Position numbers and translations under genes: made by a program. Shown in pieces: positions 2,133 through 29,474 of a stretch of 33,316 nt of DNA. Source of the DNA: Helicobacter cetorum (lineage in GTDB: Bacteria > Campylobacterota > Campylobacteria > Campylobacterales > UBA6016); NCBI GenBank assembly GCA_022729705.1, contig DZAX01000023.1, positions 1 to 33,316 on the forward strand, written 5' to 3'. The notes under the pieces were generated by a model. It ran no database searches, was not told the DNA's origin, and worked only from the letters and a program-made list of their open reading frames with translations. Position 1 is the first letter of the stretch; each line of letters starts with the position of its first letter.

Positions 2133-2840
2133 ATGAAAAAGTTGATATTAATATTCTTGGCGATAGCTTCATTGGCGTTTGCAAAAGAGAGAACAGAGCT
2201 AACCATAATCAGTATAGATTCCGACGGTAGAGGAGCGCTTGCCAAAGGCGGCGCCGTCCAAAAAGGTGCGACTGGTATAGTAGTCTCAAACATCACTCCA
2301 AATAAAGACGCAATAGTCGCCTCCGCCAGAGCGTTAAGTAGTGGAAATGAAATAAAAATAAGCTTTGAAACTATGACCGATTTAGCGCAGGACGCACTTC
2401 CTAGAGCTCTTATTTTGCCAAAAGTAGGTGATAAGGCGCTGTTTTATCTATTTGACGATAGAGCCACTATAATCGCCAAAAATCAATCCGATTATCAAAA
2501 GATTGCTGAGAGCGAAAAAAAGACATGGGTGCATCCGGATTTGTTTGCCGCCCTTTTGACAAAGGAGCGTATTGGGGAGCCGGACGCTAGACACTTTAGC
2601 TCTTTTTGTAAAACATACTCAGTTGGAACAATCTATTTTGCGATAAAAAACAGAGTCTATATCACAGACTGCCAAAGCATGGAGATACTAGAAGAGAGGG
2701 CTTTTGCCTCTGAAAACAAAAATGAGTTTGAATCGCCATTTTTTAAAAGAACCGGAGAGATAGAGACGGGGTATCTCGGAGTGCTAAAATCAAGCGTAAA
2801 AGAGTATGACTCACACTATCTAAAGCTTCTTGGAAAATAA
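2133..2840 (+). CDS. Exported PGBA_N-domain (plasminogen-binding N-terminal) protein
   Basis: This is a 235-residue protein with a clear signal peptide (MKKLILIFLAIASLAFA, cleavage probably after residue 17). The mature part resembles the conserved N-terminal region of Helicobacter PgbA/PgbB, a family largely restricted to Campylobacterota. Family-like segments include GGAVQKGATGIV, the LPRALILPKVGDKALF stretch and WVHPDLFAA. The Lys/Glu-rich C-terminal tail that gives the Helicobacter proteins plasminogen binding is absent, so host plasminogen binding should not be assumed. A periplasmic or outer-surface role is likely. It lies directly upstream of glcD, with only one base between its stop and the glcD ATG. 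Confidence 0.72.
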   Translation: MKKLILIFLAIASLAFAKERTELTIISIDSDGRGALAKGGAVQKGATGIVVSNITPNKDAIVASARALSSGNEIKISFETMTDLAQDALPRALILPKVGDKALFYLFDDRATIIAKNQSDYQKIAESEKKTWVHPDLFAALLTKERIGEPDARHFSSFCKTYSVGTIYFAIKNRVYITDCQSMEILEERAFASENKNEFESPFFKRTGEIETGYLGVLKSSVKEYDSHYLKLLGK

Positions 2841-2841
2841 G

Positions 2842-4224
2842 ATGTTGGATAAAAAACATATAACCGCACTAAAATTAATAGTTGGGGATGATAACTGCTT
2901 TGATGATAAAGCCCACCTAATAGCATACTGCTACGACGCCACAAAAAATAGATATGAGCCCTCAGCCGTCGTATTTCCAAAAGACGAGAACGACGTAAGC
3001 CGCGTCTTGCGATACTGCAACGAACACCGTATAGCGATAGTCCCAAGGGGAGCCGGAAGCGGCTTTACGGGTGGGGCGCTACCTGTGACGGGCGGCGTTG
3101 TGCTAGCCTTTGAAAAGCACATGAACAAAATCTTGGAAATCGACCAAAAAAATCTCGTAGCGGTTGTGCAGCCTGGTGTGGTAAACAAAGAGCTTCAAGA
3201 GGCGGTGGAAAAAGTCGGGCTTTTCTATCCGCCAGACCCTGCAAGCCAAGAGTACAGCACAATAGGCGGCAATGTAGCTGAAAATGCGGGCGGTATGAGG
3301 GCGGCAAAATACGGCATCACAAAAGATTATGTGATGGCGATGAGGGCGGTATTGCCAAACGGCGATATAATCAAAGCCGGCAAGCGCACAATCAAAGACG
3401 TAGCGGGCTACAACCTCTGCGGCATCCTCGTAGGAAGCGAGGGAACACTTGCGGTAACAACCGAAATCACACTAAGACTTATCGCAAAACCAAAGATGAC
3501 CAAAACTGCGATGGGTGTGTTTGAGAGTGTGGAATCGGCGATGGAGGCTGTATATAAGACGTTTGCCGAGGGTATTACGCCTGTGGCAATGGAGTTTCTC
3601 GATAATCTCACCATAAGAGCGGTTGAAGAAGTACACAAAAAAGGGCTTCCTATTGACGCTGGGGCAATACTCATCACCGATGTGGACGGCAATCTTGAAG
3701 CCGATCTTGACTTGCAACTTGAAGCTTTGGAGAGAGTGTTTAAAGCAAACGGCTGCTCTGATTTTGTACGCGCAAAAGATGCGGCGGAAGCCTCAAATCT
3801 ATGGTTTGCTAGACGAAACGCCTCGCAAAGCCTAAAAGTATACGGCAACAAAAAACTAAACGAAGACATCACAGTACCACGCGCCGTCTTGCCGGAGCTT
3901 TTGGCTCAGTACAAAAAAGTAAGCGAAAAATACAGCTTTAATATCCCATGTTTTGGACATACGGGGGATGGCAACGTACACACAAACGTCATGACCGACA
4001 AAAACGACCCGCATAAAGTGGAGATGGCGGAAAAAGCGATAGAAGAGATATTTCAAATAGCAATTGACCTTGGCGGCACGCTAAGTGGCGAACACGGCAT
4101 AGGGTTATCTAAAGCGCCTTTTATGAAAATGGCGTTTACGGAGGCGGAGCTGGAGCTTTTTCGTTCCATCAAGAGGGCGTTTGACCCGAATAATATACTC
4201 AATCCGGGGAAGATGGGGTTGTAA
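2842..4224 (+). CDS. glcD: FAD-linked 2-hydroxyacid dehydrogenase, GlcD type
   Basis: This 460-residue enzyme has an N-terminal FAD-binding PCMH domain (SAVVFPKDENDVSRVLRYC, PRGAGSGFTGGALP, PDPASQEYSTIGGNVAENAGG) and a C-terminal FAD-oxidase domain (FGHTGDGNVHTNV with the metal-binding His residues, LSGEHGIG, and DPNNILNPGKMG at the end). It should oxidise glycolate or D-lactate in the cytoplasm or at the inner membrane, feeding electrons to quinone. The ATG at 2842 is chosen because the TTG twelve bases upstream lies inside the preceding gene. No glcE or glcF partner is visible nearby, so the substrate (glycolate versus D-lactate) is open. Confidence 0.88.
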   Translation: MLDKKHITALKLIVGDDNCFDDKAHLIAYCYDATKNRYEPSAVVFPKDENDVSRVLRYCNEHRIAIVPRGAGSGFTGGALPVTGGVVLAFEKHMNKILEIDQKNLVAVVQPGVVNKELQEAVEKVGLFYPPDPASQEYSTIGGNVAENAGGMRAAKYGITKDYVMAMRAVLPNGDIIKAGKRTIKDVAGYNLCGILVGSEGTLAVTTEITLRLIAKPKMTKTAMGVFESVESAMEAVYKTFAEGITPVAMEFLDNLTIRAVEEVHKKGLPIDAGAILITDVDGNLEADLDLQLEALERVFKANGCSDFVRAKDAAEASNLWFARRNASQSLKVYGNKKLNEDITVPRAVLPELLAQYKKVSEKYSFNIPCFGHTGDGNVHTNVMTDKNDPHKVEMAEKAIEEIFQIAIDLGGTLSGEHGIGLSKAPFMKMAFTEAELELFRSIKRAFDPNNILNPGKMGL

Positions 4225-4227
4225 TTT

Positions 4228-5085
4228 ATGTCCGACTTTAGTTTAATCAAAATAGATGGAGAGTTGTCTAGACCAGCCACCATTTTAATTGAAAAGGTGT
4301 CGGACGCAATTGGCGGCATTTTTAAGCCAATTCAAATAGAAAGAGTTGCAAAAGCCGAAGCTAAAGCAAAACTTATCGAAACAAATACAAAAATTGAGAT
4401 TAGCGAACTTGAGCAAAGAGCGCTAATAAGAATGGTTCGCGAAGAAGGTAAAAAACAAGAAAATATCGAAAACATTACAGCAAAAGCGTTAACATATTTA
4501 ACAGAAGACGCAAAACCTGAAAATATTGAAGACGACTGGTTAGCAAACTTTTTTGACAAGAGCAGGCTTACATCGGACGAACAAATGCAAGAGATTTGGG
4601 CTAAGATTTTGGCTGGGGAGGCGAAAAAAAGCTGTACATACTCTAAACGAACTATAGATTTAGTGTCAACGCTTGATAAATCAGATGCAGAATTATTTAC
4701 AAATCTATGTTCGTTTATTTGGGTGCTGGAAAATAAGCCGCTCATTTATGACGTTAACGCCGATATATATCAACGTGTGAATATTAATTTTGGAACAATG
4801 ACGCATCTGCAAGATATTGGACTTGTTAATTTTAATAATCTTACTGGCTATATACTAGCAAAACTCGAAAAAACTTTACATCTCACGGGCGACGGTGTCC
4901 ATATCGCTTTGGAAATGCCAAATAATGAAAATAATACTTTAAATATTGGAAAAGTACTTCTAACAAAAGCGGGGGAGCAACTTCTTTCAGTAGTAGACTC
5001 GAAGCCTTCCGAAGAATTTAAACAATATGTTATTGCAAAGTGGACTGAATTTGGTTATAAGCCCGCTACGCCAATGCGAGCATAG
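4228..5085 (+). CDS. DUF2806 domain protein
   Basis: This 285-residue cytoplasmic protein matches DUF2806. It has an N-terminal helical part, then QENIENITAKALTYL near residue 78, the DDWLANFFDKSRLTSDEQMQEIWAKILAGE block and the SKRTIDLVSTLDKSDAELFTNLC block near residues 139-162. No catalytic motif is apparent. The gene starts 3 bases after glcD but is followed after only 3 bases by the MntA-type antitoxin gene, so it appears to be the first gene of a DUF2806-MNT-HEPN operon. The sequence is more AT-rich than glcD, consistent with acquisition by transfer. DUF2806 genes have no established role. Its position suggests a sensor or accessory role in the conflict module (inference). Confidence 0.72.
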   Translation: MSDFSLIKIDGELSRPATILIEKVSDAIGGIFKPIQIERVAKAEAKAKLIETNTKIEISELEQRALIRMVREEGKKQENIENITAKALTYLTEDAKPENIEDDWLANFFDKSRLTSDEQMQEIWAKILAGEAKKSCTYSKRTIDLVSTLDKSDAELFTNLCSFIWVLENKPLIYDVNADIYQRVNINFGTMTHLQDIGLVNFNNLTGYILAKLEKTLHLTGDGVHIALEMPNNENNTLNIGKVLLTKAGEQLLSVVDSKPSEEFKQYVIAKWTEFGYKPATPMRA

Positions 5086-5088
5086 AAA

Positions 5089-5376
5089 ATGACCAAATCG
5101 CAAGCCCTATCAATCCTTGAAAACCACAAGGCAGATTTCACCGCTTGTTATGGCGTGGAGCGAATAGGGATATTTGGCTCCGTGGCAAGAGATGAGGCAA
5201 CTGAAAATAGTGATGTAGACATCGTAGCTCAAATGCCGCCCAGTTTTAAAGCCCTTTTAGAGTTGCAAGAAGAACTCGAAAAAGAGTTTGGAACTAAAGT
5301 TGACCTTGTGACACTCCACAACAATATGAAACCGAGATTTAGGGAGCGCATTTTGAGGGAGGCTATATTTGTCTAA
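5089..5376 (+). CDS. mntA: MntA-type nucleotidyltransferase antitoxin
   Basis: This is a 95-residue minimal nucleotidyltransferase. The active-site motif GS-x10-DxD is complete (G30, S31, D42, D44), with a likely third acidic residue in VDLV near residue 75. In characterised HEPN/MNT pairs, MntA antitoxins AMPylate the partner HEPN RNase near its RX4HXY motif and so silence it. The gene follows DUF2806 after 3 bases and overlaps a TTG-started HEPN frame by 8 bases, the classical antitoxin-toxin coupling. The antitoxin looks intact although its partner frame is interrupted. Confidence 0.88.
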   Translation: MTKSQALSILENHKADFTACYGVERIGIFGSVARDEATENSDVDIVAQMPPSFKALLELQEELEKEFGTKVDLVTLHNNMKPRFRERILREAIFV

Positions 5377-5737
5377 CTCTACTCTTTGCGACAAACTTCT
5401 TGATATTTTAGAGAGTATAGAAATCGTGCAAAAGAGAACCTAAACGGTGTTGTCGCCTGATGGTTTTATAGGGGACGATGAAGCTAATCTGCGTTTTGAC
5501 GCCGTACTGATGAGGCTACAAACAATTGGTGAGATACTAAAAAGCGTAGAAAAATCGGATGGTAAATTTCTTGCTAAATTTTTGGATTCTGACATTGCCG
5601 GCGCTATTAAGCTGAGAGATATAATATCGCACCACTACGCCGACATCAACCCTGCCATCATATTTGATGTATGCAAAAACCATCTTGAAAAGCTTAAAAT
5701 AAAAATAAAAGTAATGCTGCAAGAAGCGTGCAGTTAA
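5369..5737 (+). pseudogene. hepT: HEPN (DUF86/HepT-like) toxin interrupted by in-frame TAA
   Basis: Starting from the TTG at 5369, the frame encodes a first helix (CDKLLDILESIEIVQKRT), meets a TAA at 5441-5443, and continues in the same frame through the rest of a DUF86 HEPN domain (DGFIGDDEANLRFDAVLMRLQTIGE) to 5737. The RNase motif RX4HXY is intact as RDIISHHY. A GTG at 5447, three bases after the stop, could allow reinitiation and give a 96-residue product that keeps the motif but lacks helix 1. The gene may therefore be a pseudogene, a split gene or a read-through gene. The intact upstream antitoxin argues for recent loss. The substitution could be a CAA-to-TAA change, but that is a guess. 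Confidence 0.75.
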
Positions 5738-5807
5738 ATCGCATACCGCTTCTATTAAGAAATTTTGCGTAACAATATAGAAAAATTAGCGCAAGGGTAT
5801 AAAAAAG

Positions 5808-6227
5808 ATGGCGTTAATCCTAGAGAGTTGGCAAAAGTCGATAGATTCGCTTGAACGATAGGTCAAAGCCAATGCCTATGCAAAAGAACTCTCGCTAGAT
5901 GCGGACATACTTGAAGCCCTCAAAGCCGGAGTCATCCAAAACTTTGAGATGGTATACGAGCAATCTTGGAAAATGATGAGAAGATGGCTTGTGTCAAATC
6001 TTGGGCGAGAATACGTTGATGGGATAAGTAGAAAAGAGCTTTTCCGTCTCGCTCTCCAAAATAGGCTGATAGATGATTTTGAAGTGTGGCTAGATTTTCA
6101 CCGCTCGCGCAATGAAACTTCGCATATCTACGACCAAACAATAGCAAACGATGTATTTGAAAAAGCCGCAAATTTCTTACTTTACGCAAAAGCACTTTAC
6201 GCCGCTATTGAGTCGAAAAATGATTGA
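5808..6227 (+). pseudogene. HI0074-type HEPN (nucleotidyltransferase substrate-binding) gene interrupted by in-frame TAG
   Basis: From the ATG at 5808 the frame reads as helix 1 of the HI0074-like HEPN family (LESWQKSIDSLER), hits TAG at 5859-5861, then continues without frameshift through KAGVIQNFEMVYEQSWKMMRRWL, the family's characteristic helix, to 6227. Read without the stop it is 139 codons, the usual length for the family. The motif RNETSHIY (RX4HXY) is intact. Unlike the neighbour upstream, there is no close restart codon: the next ATG is at 5949 and would lose 47 residues. The end overlaps the downstream antitoxin by 8 bases, as in functional HEPN-MNT pairs. Confidence 0.75.
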
Positions 6228-6513
6228 TTTATCCCCTGCCCACACGGCTCTTATCAGACAAATACTCAAAAAAGAACTGCCAAATCATGAAGTCGCCGTC
6301 TTTGGTTCCAGAGTAAACGGCATGGCAAAACCATACTCCGATGTAGACCTAGTTGTAATCTCAAAAGAAGGCTTGAATAAAAATAAACTTTGGGAGCTAC
6401 GAGAGGCTTTTGAAGAGTCGGATTTGCCCTTTAGCGTCGATGTTTTGGATTGGAACAGATTGTCTAAAAGTTTTCAAGACAACATCAAAGATAAATATGA
6501 AAAAATAAAATGA
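6220..6513 (+). CDS. mntA: MntA-type nucleotidyltransferase antitoxin (second)
   Basis: This 97-residue minimal nucleotidyltransferase begins at the ATG at 6220, which overlaps the stop of the preceding HEPN frame. A longer upstream frame exists but would lie entirely within the HEPN gene. The active-site motif is complete (G29, S30, ten residues, D41, D43), and FSVDVLDW supplies the later acidic strand. It is the cognate partner of the HI0074-type HEPN gene and is only distantly similar to the antitoxin at 5089, so the two pairs are independent acquisitions rather than a tandem duplication. The stop overlaps a further ATG (ATGA at 6510-6513) leading into a decayed frame. Confidence 0.88.
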   Translation: MIDLSPAHTALIRQILKKELPNHEVAVFGSRVNGMAKPYSDVDLVVISKEGLNKNKLWELREAFEESDLPFSVDVLDWNRLSKSFQDNIKDKYEKIK

Positions 6514-6775
6514 CAAAAACAGAACTATTGAGCCCTCTGAATAAATATGAAATTCTAAGAGCGACTAGCCGCGAGAGCCGTCTGCTGAAGACCTTATTTT
6601 GGGCTTAGCTCAAACGGAATAGTTCTTTATGCCAAATAACTTTTTGCTGCCGTATCAAATCTATATTTTAAAGGCAAAGCAAGATTTGACGCTTGTTGAG
6701 AAAAATATAGATGACAACGAAATAGCAATAGAGATAATATTTTTCCATCTGTAGCAAGCTGCAAACATCGCCTCA
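6510..6775 (+). pseudogene. Decayed third HEPN-type gene remnant
   Basis: An ATG at 6510, overlapping the preceding stop (ATGA), opens a 32-codon frame ending at a TAG. A second frame from the ATG at 6629 reads like helices 1-2 of a HEPN domain: QIYILKAKQDLTLVEKNI, then a spacer, then FFHL-stop-QAANIAS. HEPN proteins usually have FHxQQAAEK here, so the TAG at 6752-6754 replaces the first Gln of that motif. The gene is then cut off by the convergent TauE/SafE gene. An earlier TAG at 6620 lies in the same frame. The remnant also contains one copy of the 30-bp dispersed repeat (6556-6585). It cannot encode a working protein. Confidence 0.55.
6556..6585 (-). repeat. 30-bp dispersed repeat, copy C
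   Basis: The reverse complement of this stretch matches 13785-13814 at 26 of 30 positions, counted by eye. The match weakens beyond it, but the translated frame stays similar (REPSAEDLILG here versus REPSAKELILG there). Confidence 0.6.
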
Positions 6776-7450
6776 CTACAAAACCGCAATCCCTCTATAA
6801 ACCGTATAAACCGCAAACCCAATTATTATAAGCCCCGATATTTTTGAAGCTGATTTTCTAAAATCTGTTTTTTGCAATATTCCAGAGGCGTAGGCTAGGC
6901 TTAGCATTGGGAGCATTGTTGAGACCCCAAAGACGAACATTATTAGGGCTCCTTTTGCGGTGGAGCCGCTGGCGGCGGCGGAGGAGGCGAAGAAGTAGAC
7001 TAGACCGCACGGGAAAAAGCCGTTTATTATGCCTAGACTCAAAAAGGAGGCTTTTGAGTCTGATTTTAGCGTTTTTTGGAATGCGGTTTTGAAAAATCTG
7101 ATTTTGGTAAAGTCGTATTCAAGCAGTCTTGAAGCCCATACAAACCCAAGTAGCCAAAGCCCGACAAGCGCCATAATGACGCCCGCAAACAGATACAAAA
7201 GAGCTTTTGCCGTAGGGCTAAGAGCTACAACTCCGCCAAGCGTTCCCGCAAAAACACCTATAAGCGTATAGCTGATTGTCCTACCGCTATTGTATAAAAG
7301 ATGAGAGATTAGTCTATCTTTTGCACCAAAACACGCTCCCATTTTTGTGGAGCTGTAAGCTAGTACAAAACCGCCGCACATACCGACACAATGCCCAATG
7401 CTCCCAAAAAATGCGGCAACGGCGATAGTCAAAATGCTAAAATCTTCCAA
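6776..7450 (-). CDS. TauE/SafE (DsbD_2 / UreH-like) family membrane protein
   Basis: This 224-residue inner-membrane protein has about six transmembrane segments. It shows the DsbD_2-type hallmarks: GSIGHCVGMCGGFVLAYS in the first helix, NSGRTISYTLIGVFAGTLGG, and NGFFPCGLVYFFASSAAASGS after a cytoplasmic loop. The paired Cys/Pro-Cys motifs in helices are typical of relatives linked to thiol-redox or copper handling and cytochrome oxidase assembly. The start is a TTG at 7450, since no in-frame ATG exists nearby upstream. It lies 45 bases downstream of a copper-type TonB receptor on the same strand, so a role in copper supply is a reasonable inference. Sulfite export, suggested by the family name, is less likely. 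Confidence 0.8.
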   Translation of the reverse strand: MEDFSILTIAVAAFFGSIGHCVGMCGGFVLAYSSTKMGACFGAKDRLISHLLYNSGRTISYTLIGVFAGTLGGVVALSPTAKALLYLFAGVIMALVGLWLLGFVWASRLLEYDFTKIRFFKTAFQKTLKSDSKASFLSLGIINGFFPCGLVYFFASSAAASGSTAKGALIMFVFGVSTMLPMLSLAYASGILQKTDFRKSASKISGLIIIGFAVYTVYRGIAVL

Positions 7451-13487: not shown

Positions 13488-13813
13488 TCAAATAGTAAGC
13501 CCAAAAAGTCCCTTTGCACACTCCTCATATCGCACAATCTGTTTTTGCATAACGCCGTTTTCTATGATTTTCAGTTCGTCATCCAGCAAGATTTTACGCC
13601 CTTTTGGGGTTTGCATGACGGCTATCTTTTTTTGCGTAAATATCGTATTTGGATGCGTGGCGTTGAAGTAGTTGGCGAGGCTAAACTCTATCCACTCGCC
13701 CGCTACAATGCACTTAGTAGATATTCGCCATTCTTTAGTTCCATCTTAAAGCTATCACCATCTTGCCCCAAAATGAGCTCTTTGGCAGACGGCTCTCGCA
13801 GCTAGCCACTCTT
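13488..13813 (-). pseudogene. Unidentified decayed gene
   Basis: On the minus strand one frame reads REPSAKELILGQDGDSF followed by KMELKNGEYLLSAL and a stop. A +1 shift then continues as VAGEWIEFSLANYF, NATHPNTIFTQKKIAVM and QTPKGRKILLDDELKIIENG, ending at the TGA at 13488-13490. The two parts join smoothly into about 105 protein-like residues, so a frameshift near 13705 has broken a real gene. A TAG also lies just before the REPSA segment. I do not recognise the family. It may have begun at the ATG around 13819. Both flanks carry the 30-bp repeat. Confidence 0.5.
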
Positions 13814-13814
13814 G
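13785..13814 (+). repeat. 30-bp dispersed repeat, copy B
   Basis: Best-matched member of the three-copy family: 26 of 30 identical to the reverse complement of 6556-6585 and 23 of 30 identical to 13437-13466. Confidence 0.6.
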
Positions 13815-13926
13815 AAAATTCATTTTAATCAGAGAGTTCAATTGTACGCCGTAATAAAAAATAATCAGCCATACCACAACAACACGCTAAAATACACAAA
13901 AAGTAAAACACAGGAAAAACCAAAAA

Positions 13927-23034: not shown

Positions 23035-24324
23035 ATGACGCAATCAAAGAGCATAAAACCAAGCAATACGCTATCGCACAATGAAGTATGGATACAAAAA
23101 CTATGGGCTTGGGCGGATAAAAACCGTGTGCCAAATCTTGAGCTAGTAGAGGAGCACGGTGGCTATTGGGTCGGGCTTCCAAGGGATAAGCAGAGATTGT
23201 TAAAGCTTACCTGTCTTAGGCTAAACGCCAATAATATATCAGAACTTCCAAAAGAGATAGGTAATTTAACCGAGCTAAAAGAGCTCTCTTTGTATAAAAA
23301 CAAGCTAACATATTTACCGAAAGAGATAGGTTCTTTGGAGGAGTTGACTAGACTTTGGCTTGGGGATAACGGCTTATTGGCGTTGCCTGAAGAGATAGGT
23401 TCTCTCGCGAGTCTAACTACTCTAAACCTAAAAAATAACAGTCTAACAAGCCTGCCGCACAGCATAATCAATCTGACGAAGCTTACAAAAATATGGCTTG
23501 GCGGTAATCCGCGCCTCAACTGGACGGAGGAGCAGATAGAGTGGATATGCGACCTAAAGGCGTGCGGCTGTACGCTGGAGGTGGACTCGTATCTGCTTAG
23601 GCTGCTGGCTGAAGTAGAAGAGGGGGGAAGCAGGCGGACGCTTTGCCTACTTGACGAGTATGACCATAGCCGCAAAAGACTTGAGTCTGAAGCGGACGAG
23701 TCGGATGAGTCGCAGGTAAATCTATGGACAAACGAGCCTGAAAAGTGGGACGCTCCAGATCTTACGAAACTAGAAGACGACGGCAGAGGGTGCGATACAC
23801 TCTCAAGCGAGCCCGATGAAGAAGAGCATGGGGTTGTGCGCGAGGTTGCGTCTTTGCTTGATGCGGATTTGATAGACAAAGAGAGGAACGAAGACGCCAA
23901 CTGGCCGCAAAGAATATGGGAGTGGGCTGATAGGAGCTCTATACCATCTACTCATATACCAAGACAAAAAGAGGCTCTTACGACTCTTGCCACGCTAGAC
24001 CTTCGCAATAGAGCCCTTACGTCGTTGCCGCACGAAATAGGCAATTTGATAAATCTAAAAGAGCTGTCGCTTCTGGGCAACAATCTAAGAGTTTTGCCAA
24101 GCGAAATAGGAAATCTAATCAACTTCACATGGCTAGGTCTTGCAAACAACTATCTTACCGAACTGCCGACGGAGATAGTAAACTTGGAAAAATTAACATT
24201 TTTGAGACTCGCCGAAAATCATGATTTGGTCTTGACCGAGGGGCAAAAAAGATGGATAGGGCGGCTAAAATCTGACGGTTGCAGGGTCTCCATTGACGAT
24301 GATTTGTTTGAGAGGGAGGAGTAG
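23035..24324 (+). CDS. Leucine-rich repeat protein with tandem-duplicated module
   Basis: This 429-residue protein has no signal peptide or membrane segment, so it is probably cytoplasmic. It consists of two versions of one module. Module 1 (about 19-185) has a Trp-rich cap (WIQKLWAWADKN), four LRRs of the LPxxIGxLxxLxxLxLxxNxL type, and a closing cap (LNWTEEQIEWICDLKACGC). Module 2 (about 290-423) repeats this with WPQRIWEWADR, three LRRs and TEGQKRWIGRLKSDGC. The acidic linker (186-288) is rich in Asp/Glu/Ser. GAGG precedes the ATG. The stop is followed after one base by the GTG of a HEPN toxin gene, so the three genes LRR-HEPN-MNT form an operon. LRRs normally bind protein ligands, and a sensing role is inferred. 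Confidence 0.85.
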   Translation: MTQSKSIKPSNTLSHNEVWIQKLWAWADKNRVPNLELVEEHGGYWVGLPRDKQRLLKLTCLRLNANNISELPKEIGNLTELKELSLYKNKLTYLPKEIGSLEELTRLWLGDNGLLALPEEIGSLASLTTLNLKNNSLTSLPHSIINLTKLTKIWLGGNPRLNWTEEQIEWICDLKACGCTLEVDSYLLRLLAEVEEGGSRRTLCLLDEYDHSRKRLESEADESDESQVNLWTNEPEKWDAPDLTKLEDDGRGCDTLSSEPDEEEHGVVREVASLLDADLIDKERNEDANWPQRIWEWADRSSIPSTHIPRQKEALTTLATLDLRNRALTSLPHEIGNLINLKELSLLGNNLRVLPSEIGNLINFTWLGLANNYLTELPTEIVNLEKLTFLRLAENHDLVLTEGQKRWIGRLKSDGCRVSIDDDLFEREE

Positions 24325-24325
24325 G

Positions 24326-24814
24326 GTGATAGACAAAGTCGAGATACTTGAAAAAAGATTTGCAAAACTAGACAAACACTATGTAGCGCTCAAAGAGTAT
24401 AAGCTTTTGATTGACGACTTGCTTTGCGCAAGAAATATTTATGAACCCTCAGTATTTAATAGTTTGGAGCCTGAAAAAAGGGCTATTTTGGATGCTTACC
24501 TTAAGCGTTTTAGCTCTATTCAGGATTATTTAGTGGCGAAGGTATTTTCTTTGGTTCTTGATATTGCGGGTATCGGGAGTCAAAAAATGAGCGACGTGCT
24601 CTATCATGTAGAAAAAGAGCAAATTATTGATACTTTGCAAGAGTGGCTAGAACTAAGAGATATTAGAAACGAACTAGAGCATGAATATCCCGAGCATCTG
24701 CAAAAAGCGTTGGATGATTTGAAGTTTTGCGTCGATAGTTTTGCAAAACTAGAAAAGTACTATTTTAATACTATAGAGTTTGCGCAAAGGCACATCGGTG
24801 CGACTATCGGGTAG
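24326..24814 (+). CDS. HEPN RNase toxin
   Basis: This 162-residue all-helical protein has an RX4HXY motif (R114, H119, Y121 in RDIRNELEHEY), the catalytic signature of HEPN RNases of HepT-like type-VII systems. It is longer than DUF86 proteins because of an extra N-terminal helix pair. The GTG at 24326 is chosen as the start: it lies one base after the LRR stop, with GGAGG inside the last LRR codons serving as ribosome site. The C-terminus overlaps the MNT antitoxin start. Unlike the HEPN genes at 5369-6775, this one has no internal stop, so this operon looks functional. Confidence 0.8.
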   Translation: MIDKVEILEKRFAKLDKHYVALKEYKLLIDDLLCARNIYEPSVFNSLEPEKRAILDAYLKRFSSIQDYLVAKVFSLVLDIAGIGSQKMSDVLYHVEKEQIIDTLQEWLELRDIRNELEHEYPEHLQKALDDLKFCVDSFAKLEKYYFNTIEFAQRHIGATIG

Positions 24815-25088
24815 ATTATTAGATGTTATAAAACGAGCTGCGTTTGAGAGCTTTGGCGACGCTGGAGTTTATCTTTTTGGAAGTCGCACGGGCGACGCTA
24901 AAGTCGGCGGAGATATAGATTTGGCTATAGATGCACAGATGTCAACGGAGGAATTTAGACACAAAAAAGCTGCGTTTTTCGCTTATATGATTAGGGCGGA
25001 ATATGATTTGAAAATAGATATAGTCCAATATAATAGCGATGACCCGTTGCTGTTTAGCGAGATAAGAAGCAGTGGTGTTAGATTGTGA
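24798..25088 (+). CDS. MNT nucleotidyltransferase antitoxin (copy 1)
   Basis: This minimal nucleotidyltransferase of about 96 residues has a GS-x9-DxD active site (FGSRTGDAKVGGDIDLAID; S29, D39, D41) and a KIDIVQY strand with the third acidic residue. The GTG at 24798, which overlaps the HEPN gene by 17 bases, is preferred. A TTG at 24780 is possible. From 24806 to the stop and 12 bases beyond, the DNA is almost identical to a second copy at 29180-29474. It is expected to neutralise the adjacent HEPN toxin by nucleotidylation, as in known MNT/HEPN systems (inference by family). Confidence 0.85.
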   Translation: MRLSGRLLDVIKRAAFESFGDAGVYLFGSRTGDAKVGGDIDLAIDAQMSTEEFRHKKAAFFAYMIRAEYDLKIDIVQYNSDDPLLFSEIRSSGVRL

Positions 25089-25100
25089 TGTTGTGCGCTA
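24806..25100 (+). repeat. 295-bp direct repeat, copy 1
   Basis: The DNA from the ATCGGG at 24806 to GCGCTA at 25100 recurs at 29180-29474 without gaps (constant offset 4374) and with about six mismatches counted by eye. Similarity stops sharply at both ends. The repeat covers nearly the entire MNT gene. Confidence 0.9.
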
Positions 25101-25261: not shown

Positions 25262-26905
25262 TTAAATTGTTATAGTCTCATCGCTTAATTTGTCATTAGT
25301 TCTGTTGCCTGAACATAAAACGGTGTAAATCATGCAATCCAAAGCCTCTTTTGTCGTAGTTGCCGTCTTAATAAATTCCCCAGAAAGGGTGTAATCTCCG
25401 TCTGTAATTACCAGTATGTCTGCTTTTTTGTATGATTTTTGAGACTTTACAATCTCAAAAGCTCTTACGAGTGGCGTTTCAAAGTCCGTCCCGCCCCCAA
25501 AACCGTATCTTAAAAACCCTAACAATTGAGAGGAACGACTACTATCTTCCGCCGAAAATTCTCTTATTTCGCCTTTGCCACCAAATAACAATACATATAG
25601 CGAGCGGTGCTCTTTTTTTAAGATGCCGCTTATAGCTAGGAGTAGAGCCTTTGCCTTTATGAGCGGTTCGCCGTCCATACTGCCAGATGTGTCTAGGCAA
25701 GCTATGATGGGACCTGTGGTTTTTGTTGTTTTCTCTATCTCGTTTTTTTCTTCAAAGCCAGCCCCTCTTAGCTCATAAGATGCTAGGTTTTTTTCTAGCA
25801 ATTTAGCATAAAATAGCGTTTCAAGCTCTTCGTCTTCAAGGTTTATTAGTTCCGATGGGAGTAGTCGCATTAGGTCGTCGCTACGATGAGTTCCGTATAT
25901 TTCGTCCTTATTGCGTCCAGCCACGCGCGTTTTTCGTTTTTTTTCTTCGCTTATGTACTCTCTGCCCATCTTGCGAACTAATTTTTTAATCTCTGCATTA
26001 TTTTTCATCTGAGTTGCTAGAGCGGCAAAATTTTCGTTGCTTGATTTTAGGCTTGAGTATGAAAATTTCATACTTTGATTAAGGGCTAAAAACTCTTTAA
26101 CCTCTTCATATTTTTGGACAATATTTTGTAGGGTTTGCCTGAATACGACAAGTTTTTTTCTGACGTCCTCCGGTATTTTCTCGTCTGAAATTTCCGCTTC
26201 ATACTCTTGTAGTCCGTTTAGTTCTTGCTTTATCGCTTGAATGGAGCTTGCGTTTAATATCCTATCTTCAAAAAAGTTGTTGATAGCCTCCCAATCCGGT
26301 TCTGGCTCTTTTTTGTCATTTTTCCAATCCCATAGTAGCCACTTCGTAGCCCCTAGTTTTTGGCGAGCCGTCAATTTTAGATTTCTTAATGTGGGCTCCA
26401 TTGTTATATCAAAACTTAACAGGTTGTGCAACCCAAATCCATAATCGGAGTCAGCATAATTTACACATTTTTCGCAAAACTGATGACAGTTTTGTATTAT
26501 TAGCCCATAAAAAGCCCTCTCGCCTAAATGCTCTATTGCTCCCTCACAGACCGTATCGTCCCCTACCGCTCCACCGGCGTCGCAGGAGACGTAAATTTTT
26601 TGCCCTAATATACTTTTGGCGGTAAAGTCTTTGGGCTTACTGCTACGCACGGAGCTCTCAAAAAAACCGTCAACGACGATATTTGCTATTTTGTTGTCGC
26701 CGATATAGATACCCGAATGCTCTACCGCAACCCACAAATCGCTATAGAGTACGCTTCCCTCTATTGGCTCAACTTTTTGACGGAAATTGTCGTCTATAAA
26801 ATACTTTATCGGTTTTAGTCCGGCAAGAGCTGCGGTATAGGCGAGCCCTCCTGCTTTTGAGACCGCCCCGAGTACCGTCGAGGCTATTTGGGCTATTAGA
26901 GCCAT
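25262..26905 (-). CDS. LRAT-like (NlpC/P60-type) domain fused to vWA domain
   Basis: This is a 547-residue protein. An N-terminal hydrophobic helix (about 1-30) precedes an LRAT-like papain-fold domain (about 45-150): H63 in VEHSGIYIGDNKI fits the conserved His, and C140 in NCHQFCEKC fits the NCxxF nucleophile of LRAT/NlpC-type enzymes. A charged helical spacer (about 200-390) leads to a C-terminal vWA domain with a full MIDAS (D405, S407, S409 in LDTSGSM, then GGTDFETP and ITDGD). It starts 10 bases inside the MoxR gene, so the two are translationally coupled. MoxR/vWA pairs act as chaperone-like or conflict-system cores. The fused Cys/His domain is the likely effector (inference). Confidence 0.82.
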   Translation of the reverse strand: MALIAQIASTVLGAVSKAGGLAYTAALAGLKPIKYFIDDNFRQKVEPIEGSVLYSDLWVAVEHSGIYIGDNKIANIVVDGFFESSVRSSKPKDFTAKSILGQKIYVSCDAGGAVGDDTVCEGAIEHLGERAFYGLIIQNCHQFCEKCVNYADSDYGFGLHNLLSFDITMEPTLRNLKLTARQKLGATKWLLWDWKNDKKEPEPDWEAINNFFEDRILNASSIQAIKQELNGLQEYEAEISDEKIPEDVRKKLVVFRQTLQNIVQKYEEVKEFLALNQSMKFSYSSLKSSNENFAALATQMKNNAEIKKLVRKMGREYISEEKKRKTRVAGRNKDEIYGTHRSDDLMRLLPSELINLEDEELETLFYAKLLEKNLASYELRGAGFEEKNEIEKTTKTTGPIIACLDTSGSMDGEPLIKAKALLLAISGILKKEHRSLYVLLFGGKGEIREFSAEDSSRSSQLLGFLRYGFGGGTDFETPLVRAFEIVKSQKSYKKADILVITDGDYTLSGEFIKTATTTKEALDCMIYTVLCSGNRTNDKLSDETITI

Positions 26906-29031
26906 ATATTTGCGCGAACCTGAGCGACTAGCGAATCCTCCGTTTGCGCAGAGTCATTCGTACCGCCGTTTTGCCCGTTTGTCTCCTCTAGTTGCGACAA
27001 TCTAAGTTTTGGTATATTCTCCGCATCGTCCCACTCCCAGTTGTTTTCAAAATCAAAGCCCAAGGTATGCTCAAAAAAACGTTGTTTGAATAGAGCGGCT
27101 GGGATGGTTTTGCCATCCTTGCCATTTACATTATCCTCGCCTTTAACCGTGTCGATGGCGGCGTTATTGTTAAGACTCGGACTGGTGGAGTCGCCTATTG
27201 ATAAAAAAAACGCACCGTAAAATCCAGAGTTAGTGCTCGACTCGATAGAACAGACTATACGTTTTACAGTAGCGCCTTTAATAGTAAAATGCCCCGTGGC
27301 ACAACTGGTAATTTTTGAGCTTTCATCTATTCCGCCGGCTATTCCACCGAAACTCACATCTCTATTGTTTGTCGTTAAGCTACCAGACGCAAAACAACGC
27401 TCAATTGTGGTACTCTTCGCCGTCCATACAATACAACCAAACATAGAAGATTCAGGTATGCCATTTGCCTCTATTGTAGCCGAACAATCCGAAATAGTGC
27501 AGTTTTTTGCATTTTTCAATAACGAGTTCCATGTCGTTTCGCAAAGAGTGATTTTACAGTCGGTAGTGCTTGTGGCTATATGGTTACCAGACGAGCACCT
27601 TGATATATCGCAATCTTTAGCCTCTTTGCTGATTAGATATTCGCCTGCAAAACAATAGTCGATTTTGCATTTTTCTACCTGCTCTGCGATTGATTTGTCT
27701 GTTTTGCAGTTGTATATTTTGGCGTCGATTGCTTTTTTCGCTAGATAGCAAGACGATAACGTCATATTTGCCACCTCCGAATCCGCCTGAATTTCGGCAA
27801 AGATATACGGGTCGTTTTGTGGCATATTTGTTATCTTATAGCCGTCTCCGTCATACTTTCCTTTGAATGTTATCTGATTCCAGTGGGTTAGCGCAGAGCA
27901 GTCTATATCGCCCGTTTGTAGAAAATAATAATCCTTAACGCCGATGTCGGTGCGATTTATGTCGGACAAATCCTCAACAGACGCTATGAGTATCGGGTCG
28001 TCTTTTGTTCCGCTGCCGCTAAACCCTTTTATGACCCCTGTCGAGGCTTTGCGCATTGGGGTTATGGCTTCGCTTTTGGCGTTTTGATTGTTGTTTGTAT
28101 CTTGCGAGATTGGTATCTGGACGCTAAAGCGCTTTAAGGTTTTTAGTATGATGTCATGCACTTTTTTGATATTGTCGTTGTGGTTCCATATAGAGTTTTT
28201 GAGCAGCAATACATCAGACAAGTCCACCTCGCTACGTCCGTTTGTGGCGGCTGAAAAACGTAAAAATTTGATAACTTTTTTGAGTCTTCTATCGGATAGA
28301 ATCTCTCTATTATCCTCTTTAAATTCAGTTTTGTGCCTTGACCAAATAGCCTGCAAAACATCTACAATATGCTCAGGCACAACTACTTTGTCCGCATATT
28401 TTGATATTGACGACAAATCATCTTTTGTCAATTTCTCGTATGTATCGGACTCTTTTGATTCTGCAAATAGTTCTCTAAAATTTTCATCAGACACATAATC
28501 AACAAAAGTCCTAACCAAAAAACGGTCATACAAGGCAGACAACTCGCCCTCTCCCGTAGGTAGTTCGTTTGAGGCTGATATGAGCGATAACAATGGAATT
28601 TTTTGGGGCTTTGAGCCGTTGTGAAAAATCCGTTCGTTGAGAATACTTAGCAGAGAGTTTAGTATAGAGGAGCTAGCCTTGAAAATCTCGTCCAAGAAAG
28701 CGATTTTTGCCGTTGGCAAATACCCCTCCGTATTTCGCTTGAAACGATCCGCTTTTAGCTCGGCGATAGACAATGGACCAAAAATCTCCTCCGGGGTAGA
28801 AAACTTGGTAAGCAGATATTCAAAATATTCGTTATCGTTATCTTGCTCTATGCAGTCTGCGACCTTGCGGGCTATCATACTCTTGCCTGTTCCGGGTGGA
28901 CCTATGAGTACTATGTTTTCGCCGCTAATAGCGCATAATAGCGCAATTTTTAACGCTTCTTCCCGCTCCACTAGACCATGATTTAGTTGGATTAAAATCG
29001 TTTGTATTTTTTGTTTGATTGTATTTTCCAT
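26896..29031 (-). CDS. MoxR-family AAA+ ATPase fused to C-terminal beta-helix (GLUG-like)
   Basis: This is a 711-residue protein. Residues 1-305 form a MoxR/RavA-type AAA+ module: Walker A GPPGTGKS (44-51), Walker B IAFLDE (110-115), sensor 1 SASNE (152-156) and the DRF motif (169-171). After a short linker, residues 335-680 look like a right-handed beta-helix: GSGTKDDPILIASVEDLSDI, then DYYFLQTGDIDCS, then KGKYDGDGYKITNM, then Cys/Ser/Asn-rich rungs, ending NWEWDDAENIPKLRL. This is the layout of GLUG-type regions of secreted adhesins, yet there is no signal peptide. The ATG at 29031 with GAGGG just upstream is preferred over the TTG three bases earlier. It overlaps the LRAT-vWA gene. Confidence 0.85.
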   Translation of the reverse strand: MENTIKQKIQTILIQLNHGLVEREEALKIALLCAISGENIVLIGPPGTGKSMIARKVADCIEQDNDNEYFEYLLTKFSTPEEIFGPLSIAELKADRFKRNTEGYLPTAKIAFLDEIFKASSSILNSLLSILNERIFHNGSKPQKIPLLSLISASNELPTGEGELSALYDRFLVRTFVDYVSDENFRELFAESKESDTYEKLTKDDLSSISKYADKVVVPEHIVDVLQAIWSRHKTEFKEDNREILSDRRLKKVIKFLRFSAATNGRSEVDLSDVLLLKNSIWNHNDNIKKVHDIILKTLKRFSVQIPISQDTNNNQNAKSEAITPMRKASTGVIKGFSGSGTKDDPILIASVEDLSDINRTDIGVKDYYFLQTGDIDCSALTHWNQITFKGKYDGDGYKITNMPQNDPYIFAEIQADSEVANMTLSSCYLAKKAIDAKIYNCKTDKSIAEQVEKCKIDYCFAGEYLISKEAKDCDISRCSSGNHIATSTTDCKITLCETTWNSLLKNAKNCTISDCSATIEANGIPESSMFGCIVWTAKSTTIERCFASGSLTTNNRDVSFGGIAGGIDESSKITSCATGHFTIKGATVKRIVCSIESSTNSGFYGAFFLSIGDSTSPSLNNNAAIDTVKGEDNVNGKDGKTIPAALFKQRFFEHTLGFDFENNWEWDDAENIPKLRLSQLEETNGQNGGTNDSAQTEDSLVAQVRANIWL

Positions 29032-29179
29032 CAATCCCTCTAAATGTTGAATATCTTTGGATTATATACAAAAAAACTTAACTAGACACCTGCGAGCTAA
29101 AAAAATTTTACTAAAGGGATCCCGCATGATACCAACAAGCAAACCAGCTATAGTAAAAACAGAGTTTTAAAGCAACAAC

Positions 29180-29474
29180 ATCGGGTAGATTGCTAGATGT
29201 TATAAAACGAGCTGCGTTTGAGAGCTTTGGCGACGCTGGAGTTTATCTTTTTGGAAGTCGCACGGGCGACGCTAAAGTCGGCGGAGATATAGATTTGGCT
29301 ATAGATGCACAGATGTCAACGGAGGAATTTAGACACAAAAAAGCTGCGTTTTTCGCTTATATGATTAGGGCGGAATATGATTTGAAAATAGATATAGTCC
29401 AATATAATAGCGATGACCCGTTGCTGTTTAGCGAGATAAGAGGTAGCGGTGTTAGATTGTGATGTTATGCGCTA
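29180..29474 (+). repeat. 295-bp direct repeat, copy 2
   Basis: Near-identical to 24806-25100, in the same orientation. Its left boundary (ATCGGG at 29180) lies where copy 1 has the end of its HEPN gene, so only the antitoxin part was copied. Confidence 0.9.
29190..29462 (+). CDS. Orphan MNT nucleotidyltransferase antitoxin (copy 2)
   Basis: This frame of about 90 codons encodes a protein nearly identical to copy 1, with the same FGSRTGDAKVGGDIDLAID active site. Only a Ser-to-Gly change (RSSG to RGSG) near the end is obvious. The upstream part of copy 1, including the GTG start and the HEPN toxin, is absent. The only available start is TTG at 29190, with no good ribosome site, so expression is doubtful. 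It may be a by-product of the duplication that brackets the MoxR/vWA pair, or a free antitoxin protecting against the HEPN toxin. Confidence 0.65.
   Translation: MLDVIKRAAFESFGDAGVYLFGSRTGDAKVGGDIDLAIDAQMSTEEFRHKKAAFFAYMIRAEYDLKIDIVQYNSDDPLLFSEIRGSGVRL

Follow-up and report, generated by a model that had tools for sequence, protein, structure and literature searches.

A degraded cluster of HEPN–MNT toxin–antitoxin modules downstream of glcD

Why should three HEPN toxin frames lying within 1.3 kb all be interrupted by in-frame stop codons, and MNT antitoxin genes directly beside them be open? The question is raised by a gene cluster on contig C67, which has a length of 33,316 bases (the window) and belongs to the 2.19-Mb draft genome G000 of 75 contigs. 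An earlier note on this DNA had pointed to a TAA at 5441-5443, a TAG at 5859-5861 and a TAG at 6752-6754 in the three frames, and all of these codons were present. The explanation that we favour, with a probability of about 0.82, is a decaying pile-up of three HEPN–MNT modules behind glcD, for which ordinary toxin loss would be sufficient and no special mechanism would be needed. The comparison within the genus, which is also the comparison within the family, comprises three genomes (G000, G001 and G002), and the three HEPN stops are known from one consensus genome, G000. The features of the locus are as follows.

2830-4224, plus strand: glcD-like gene for a FAD-linked oxidase (PF02913/PF01565), the stop codon of which marks the presumed landing site of the modules
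4228-5085, plus strand: DUF2806 gene (PF10987, E 4e-38), cargo between glcD and module 1
5089-5376, plus strand: MNT1, whole gene of a MntA-type antitoxin (PF01909/PF18765; GSX10DXD motif)
5369-5737, plus strand: HEPN1, HepT toxin gene (PF01934, HepT-like, E 6e-15 when read across the stop)
5808-6227, plus strand: HEPN2, gene of a PF08780-type toxin (PF08780, E 8e-34 when read across the stop)
6220-6513, plus strand: MNT2, whole antitoxin gene of module 2 (PF01909/PF18765), overlapping the end of HEPN2
6510-6639, plus strand: MNT3 remnant, recognised by frame reading and by likeness to MNT1 and to the MNT gene of contig C41; no Pfam match
about 6524-6608, plus strand: truncated copy of a dispersed repeat inside MNT3, with the core GAGAGCCGTCTGCTGAAGAC at 6573-6592
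6629-6775, plus strand: HEPN3 remnant, N-terminal part only, recognised by its frame; TAG at 6752-6754
6776-7450, minus strand: DsbD-like gene in convergent orientation, against the boundary of which the HEPN3 remnant ends

Damage in the three modules

On the plus strand, glcD is followed by the DUF2806 gene, MNT1, HEPN1, HEPN2, MNT2 and the remnants of MNT3 and HEPN3. HEPN1 begins with a TTG codon overlapping the end of MNT1, and past its TAA the frame was directly seen to stay in register to 5737 with no other disruption; the same applies to HEPN2, which continues past its TAG in register to 6227. A search of the genome likewise yielded one internal stop each in HEPN1 and HEPN2. The claim that both frames retain the RX4HXY motif beyond the stop was borne out by the peptides RDIISHHY in HEPN1 and RNETSHIY in HEPN2, the motif definitions for RX4HXY and GSX10DXD being those of PMC7641770. 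Since the matches to PF01934 and PF08780 cover nearly the whole profiles when the stops are read across, HEPN1 and HEPN2 can be regarded as real HEPN frames. Because of the premature stops the full-length proteins would not be made, and we take both toxins to be inactive. The GSX10DXD motif is represented by GSVARDEATENSDVD in MNT1 and by GSRVNGMAKPYSDVD in MNT2, and both proteins probably retain their enzymatic function but have no target left at the locus.

A comparison of MNT1 with its counterpart in G002 gave a dN/dS of about 0.13 at a dS near saturation, and for the part of HEPN1 after the stop the synonymous sites are saturated (pS 0.77), which renders the dN/dS unusable. The stretch of HEPN2 shared with G001 gave a pN/pS of 0.11-0.14 (0.14 for codons 19-59), indicating that this toxin gene was constrained through most of the divergence. 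PADLOC assigned MNT1 and MNT2 to the candidate family PDC-S09, matched MNT2 additionally to the N-terminal 96 of the 485 positions of a type I specificity model and matched nothing in the HEPN frames. As a candidate family and a partial match were all that was obtained, no named defence system was assigned. A plasmid collection searched with the DNA of the locus gave no match.

The third module is damaged in both genes. The remnant of MNT3 starts with the ATG at 6510, which overlaps the stop codon of MNT2, and its first residues (MTKTE) resemble those of MNT1 (MTKSQ) and of the MNT of contig C41 (MTKTEA). A frame that ends at 6639 with SNGIVLYAK and a stop codon probably represents the last ten codons of MNT3 and overlaps the start of HEPN3. 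The interior of the gene has apparently been replaced by the dispersed repeat, and the third antitoxin appears to be destroyed. HEPN3 comprises about 49 residues, ends where the DsbD-like gene begins and lacks the RX4HXY motif, and it is thus 3'-truncated as well as interrupted. Neither fragment of module 3 matches Pfam, those of MNT3 being too short, and their likeness to HEPN–MNT was judged by eye; a search for clear relatives of HEPN3 in 150 genomes of the class produced none, with one very weak match. We take module 3 to be dead. Accordingly, the description of three interrupted HEPN genes holds for HEPN1 and HEPN2 and has to be modified for the third, which is a remnant, and the description of the antitoxins as undamaged holds for MNT1 and MNT2 with their GSX10DXD motifs and had overlooked MNT3.

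The core of the dispersed repeat gave 51 matches in G000 and none with a reversed-pattern control, and a second copy in the window is located at 13767-13845. The element measures approximately 96-110 nt, has the core GAGAGCCGTCYGCTGARGAC, is bounded by terminal inverted repeats (TTGAACCCTCTGATTAA at one end and TTAATCAGAGGGTTCAA at the other), and contains three internal hairpins with paired changes in their stems. Ten copies were observed in G001 and two in G002; tandem copies were observed on contigs C35 (period 96), C49 and C6 (both with period 75). A search of the window against Rfam at gathering score returned nothing, so that the repeat corresponds to no listed RNA family; it looks like a MITE or an ERIC-like element.

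The glcD 3' end and further HEPN–MNT genes

The glcD proteins of G002 and G001 are 92% and 91% identical to that of the window, and in both genomes a HEPN/MNT module begins no more than 15 bp from the glcD stop codon. Directly after this stop, G002 contains a MNT1–HEPN1 module in which HEPN1 is complete and free of stops, and G001 (contig DIZY01000018.1, Helicobacteraceae bacterium UBA6016) contains HEPN2. Over residues 1-59, HEPN2 of G001 shares 83% identity with its counterpart in the window, and its frame is free of a stop at the position of the window's TAG. It is cut after residue 59, where pieces of a transposase (DDE_Tnp_1 and DDE_Tnp_1_assoc) follow on the opposite strand, and MNT2 was sought in this genome and not found, the assembly being 84% complete and the contig ending at that point. 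Both the differing module content of the site within the genus and the different kind of HEPN2 damage in G001 were therefore directly seen. A MNT or HEPN motif 3' of glcD was detected in 0 of 16 genomes that belong to the order but not to the genus and in which the end of glcD could be located, one of them with only about 0.5 kb of sequence downstream of the gene; 11 further loci that were fetched were unscorable. Since modules stand at this place in three genomes of the genus and in none of the 16 outside it, the glcD 3' end is best read as a genus-specific landing site, which would have received only module 1, only module 2 or the full set of three. In the window, the DUF2806 gene is an exact insertion between glcD and module 1, and neither G001 nor G002 has it there.

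Pairs with both genes complete are present in G000 on contigs C16, C35, C48 and C58 and at 24293-25088 of the window. The latter includes the HEPN gene at 24326 that had been cited as complete; its match to PF08780 is weak (E 0.009), but it keeps a RNxxxH motif and overlaps a whole MNT gene (24780-25088, PF18765/PF01909), and the two genes credibly form an intact pair. A 295-base direct repeat with 98% identity was observed at 24806-25100 and 29180-29474; its first copy spans nearly the entire MNT gene of this pair and the second is without an adjacent HEPN gene. Between the two copies lie a vWA gene (25262-26905) and a bpMoxR ATPase gene (26896-29034), an arrangement suggestive of an inserted cassette. 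In G001, a whole MNT–HepT pair was observed on contig C70 (L108, L115) directly 3' of the C-terminus of cas9, which is backed by the Pfam domains HNH_4 and RuvC_III, and before an apparent cas1 that was recognised by eye.

The reverse damage was found on contig C41 of G000 (L006, 407-1300), where a complete HepT gene with RX4HXY lies beside a broken MNT gene in which a block of GGGTGTCAGGCACTC-type repeats has taken the place of the segment carrying the GS motif. This MNT gene region has 79% identity to MNT1 over its first 67 bases, and the HepT protein is 32% identical to HEPN1. Contig C19 of G000 contains a fragment of a MNT2-like gene beside a GGGTGTCAGGCACTC-type repeat. On the basis of C41, C19 and MNT3, the view that toxins break and antitoxins stay was rejected as a genome-wide rule for G000. 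The proposal of the earlier note that toxins were lost and antitoxins kept applies to modules 1 and 2 and fails for module 3, C41 and C19; the further MNT damage that it had named as evidence to the contrary was found in part, in MNT3, the MNT of C41 and the fragment of C19.

Proposed decay of the modules and alternative explanations

In the proposed course of events, HepT/MntA-type modules would land directly behind glcD and stack up to three. HEPN1 and HEPN2 would then have been inactivated recently and separately by nonsense mutations, and in module 3 a nonsense mutation, a 3' deletion and the dispersed repeat would together have eliminated both genes. MNT1 and MNT2 would still be open because an addiction pair tolerates the loss of the toxin first, whereas loss of the antitoxin first should be harmful. 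The loss of toxin activity and this order of events are what we infer from the damage, and the C41 pair with its broken MNT and complete HepT is counter-evidence to decay as a strict toxin-first rule. The 218 codons past the first two stops (97 in HEPN1 and 121 in HEPN2) are free of further stops and of frameshifts. A neutral substitution model in which transitions have a weight of 2 predicts about 23 stops per unit of substitutions per site in these codons, and zero further stops therefore correspond to a 95% upper age limit of approximately 0.13 substitutions per site. As the synonymous distance of glcD in G000 to both G001 and G002 is about 1.4, the losses would be recent relative to the genus, if the codons evolved neutrally.

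Two whole antitoxins beside two broken toxins are also compatible with selection for the antitoxin, in which case MNT1 and MNT2 would be retained to neutralise related HEPN toxins, either mobile or encoded in the genome. Both genes are open with a full GSX10DXD motif, anti-addiction by chromosomal antitoxins has been documented for ccdEch (PMC2654758), and a possible target is the HepT of C41, the MNT partner of which lacks the GS part and resembles MNT1 in its first 67 bases to the extent given above. However, open antitoxins require no selection if the stops are as recent as they look, the low identity of HEPN1 to the C41 HepT makes a cross-action doubtful, the MNT genes of module 3, C41 and C19 are all damaged, and MNT2 was not found in the 84% complete G001. 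Retention by selection is thus unlikely, and it would be a bold guess to regard MNT1 and/or MNT2 as stand-alone adenylylating antitoxins that keep further HEPN RNases in check, perhaps the HepT of C41. More improbable still is that the stops are sequencing or assembly errors and are not present in the organism. The draft state of the genome in 75 contigs would allow for such errors, but three in-frame stops in 1.3 kb all fall into HEPN frames without any frameshift, other tested genes of the contig look whole, and the same site in G001 shows toxin damage of a different kind. Since comparable damage was not seen in the other Pfam-tested genes of the 33-kb contig, the damage in the HEPN frames does not appear to be due to chance, and we infer that the stops are real.

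The continuation of the HEPN frames past the stops, including RX4HXY, had also suggested a regulated stop read-through, and internal initiation would be a related possibility, as a GTG at 5447 stands three bases past the first stop and an ATG at 5949 opens 92 codons. This explanation was examined with 58 fetched loci encoding relatives of HEPN2, a sample picked by HEPN likeness and thus biased towards intact HEPN genes. A regulated stop should be conserved among relatives, but a sense codon occupies the HEPN2 stop position in all 57 loci readable there, the HEPN1 of G002 is open, and the HEPN2 of G001 is stop-free at the same site but cut by a transposon. Furthermore, the three stops of the window occupy unrelated positions, involve two different stop codons and affect three HEPN types; TAG serves as a normal terminator at this locus, as it ends the DUF2806 gene at 5083-5085, three bases before MNT1; and no tRNA gene that could provide a suppressor is located within the window. 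Translation from the internal starts at 5447 and 5949 would cover 96 and 92 open codons that include RX4HXY, and shortened products may be formed in this way that would miss the N-terminal 26 and 47 residues, respectively. Neither start is preceded by a clear ribosome-binding site, and we know of no conserved internal start in the HEPN family. Programmed read-through or internal initiation is accordingly the least credible of the explanations, with hardly any probability left to it, and the claim of a regulated read-through was abandoned.

The same loci provided a view of HEPN–MNT damage beyond the genus. HEPN and MNT are both open in 52 of the 58 loci, no MNT2-like gene was recognised nearby in four (in two of these owing to a contig end or a cut gene), and stops inside the HEPN gene occur in two, in one of which (L055) the MNT gene is open. 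The latter, from a Chlorobiaceae MAG (6001-6800), carries a HEPN2 relative with two in-frame stops, followed by an open MNT, and can be counted as an independent case of a broken HEPN beside an open MNT. An open HEPN together with a recognised, stop-bearing MNT was found in none of the HEPN2-relative loci. In L021 and L026, no gene recognised as MNT2-like follows the open HEPN2 relatives immediately downstream (after 6420).

Relation to known toxin–antitoxin systems

HEPN–MNT modules have been described as probably the most abundant type of toxin–antitoxin system. The locus is a degraded cluster of this known family and reveals no new mechanism. It represents a snapshot of modules arriving at one chromosomal site and then being lost, with three contents of one site in three genomes and HEPN2 broken in two different ways in two of them. 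Should the open antitoxins act on other HEPN toxins, the locus would matter more and would constitute a natural example of HepT/MntA immunity that acts in trans and without a toxin.

A working HepT is a RNase, and MntA silences it by transferring AMPs to the tyrosine in the RX4HXY motif; PF01934 with PF01909 and PF08780 with PF01909 are the two HEPN–MNT pairings that have been counted (PMC7641770). In comparison with HepT/MntA of Shewanella oneidensis (SO_3166/SO_3165; PMC7641770), module 1 combines PF01934 with PF01909 and module 2 combines PF08780 with PF01909, and both likewise have RX4HXY in the HEPN and GSX10DXD in the MNT protein. In contrast to that system, both toxin genes contain a premature stop and neither pair would yield a full-length HepT. 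Modules 1 and 2 thus agree with HepT/MntA in adjacency and motifs and differ from it in lacking a complete toxin ORF, and they are, as sequenced, degraded members of the family.

Comparable cases are known from other chromosomal toxin–antitoxin systems. The ccdEch module of Erwinia chrysanthemi acts as an anti-addiction module (PMC2654758), and by analogy an open MNT might conceivably confer protection against a related toxin, with the difference that ccdEch was tested experimentally and the MNT proteins of the window are known from their sequences. Decay has been reviewed for ccdO157 and for inactivated hok-sok copies of E. coli (PMC2654758), in which, as in the modules behind glcD, the function of a chromosomal toxin–antitoxin system is being lost to point mutations, insertion sequences and rearrangements. 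Unlike those examples, the present locus involves a HEPN RNase and an adenylylating antitoxin, with three modules stacked at one site.
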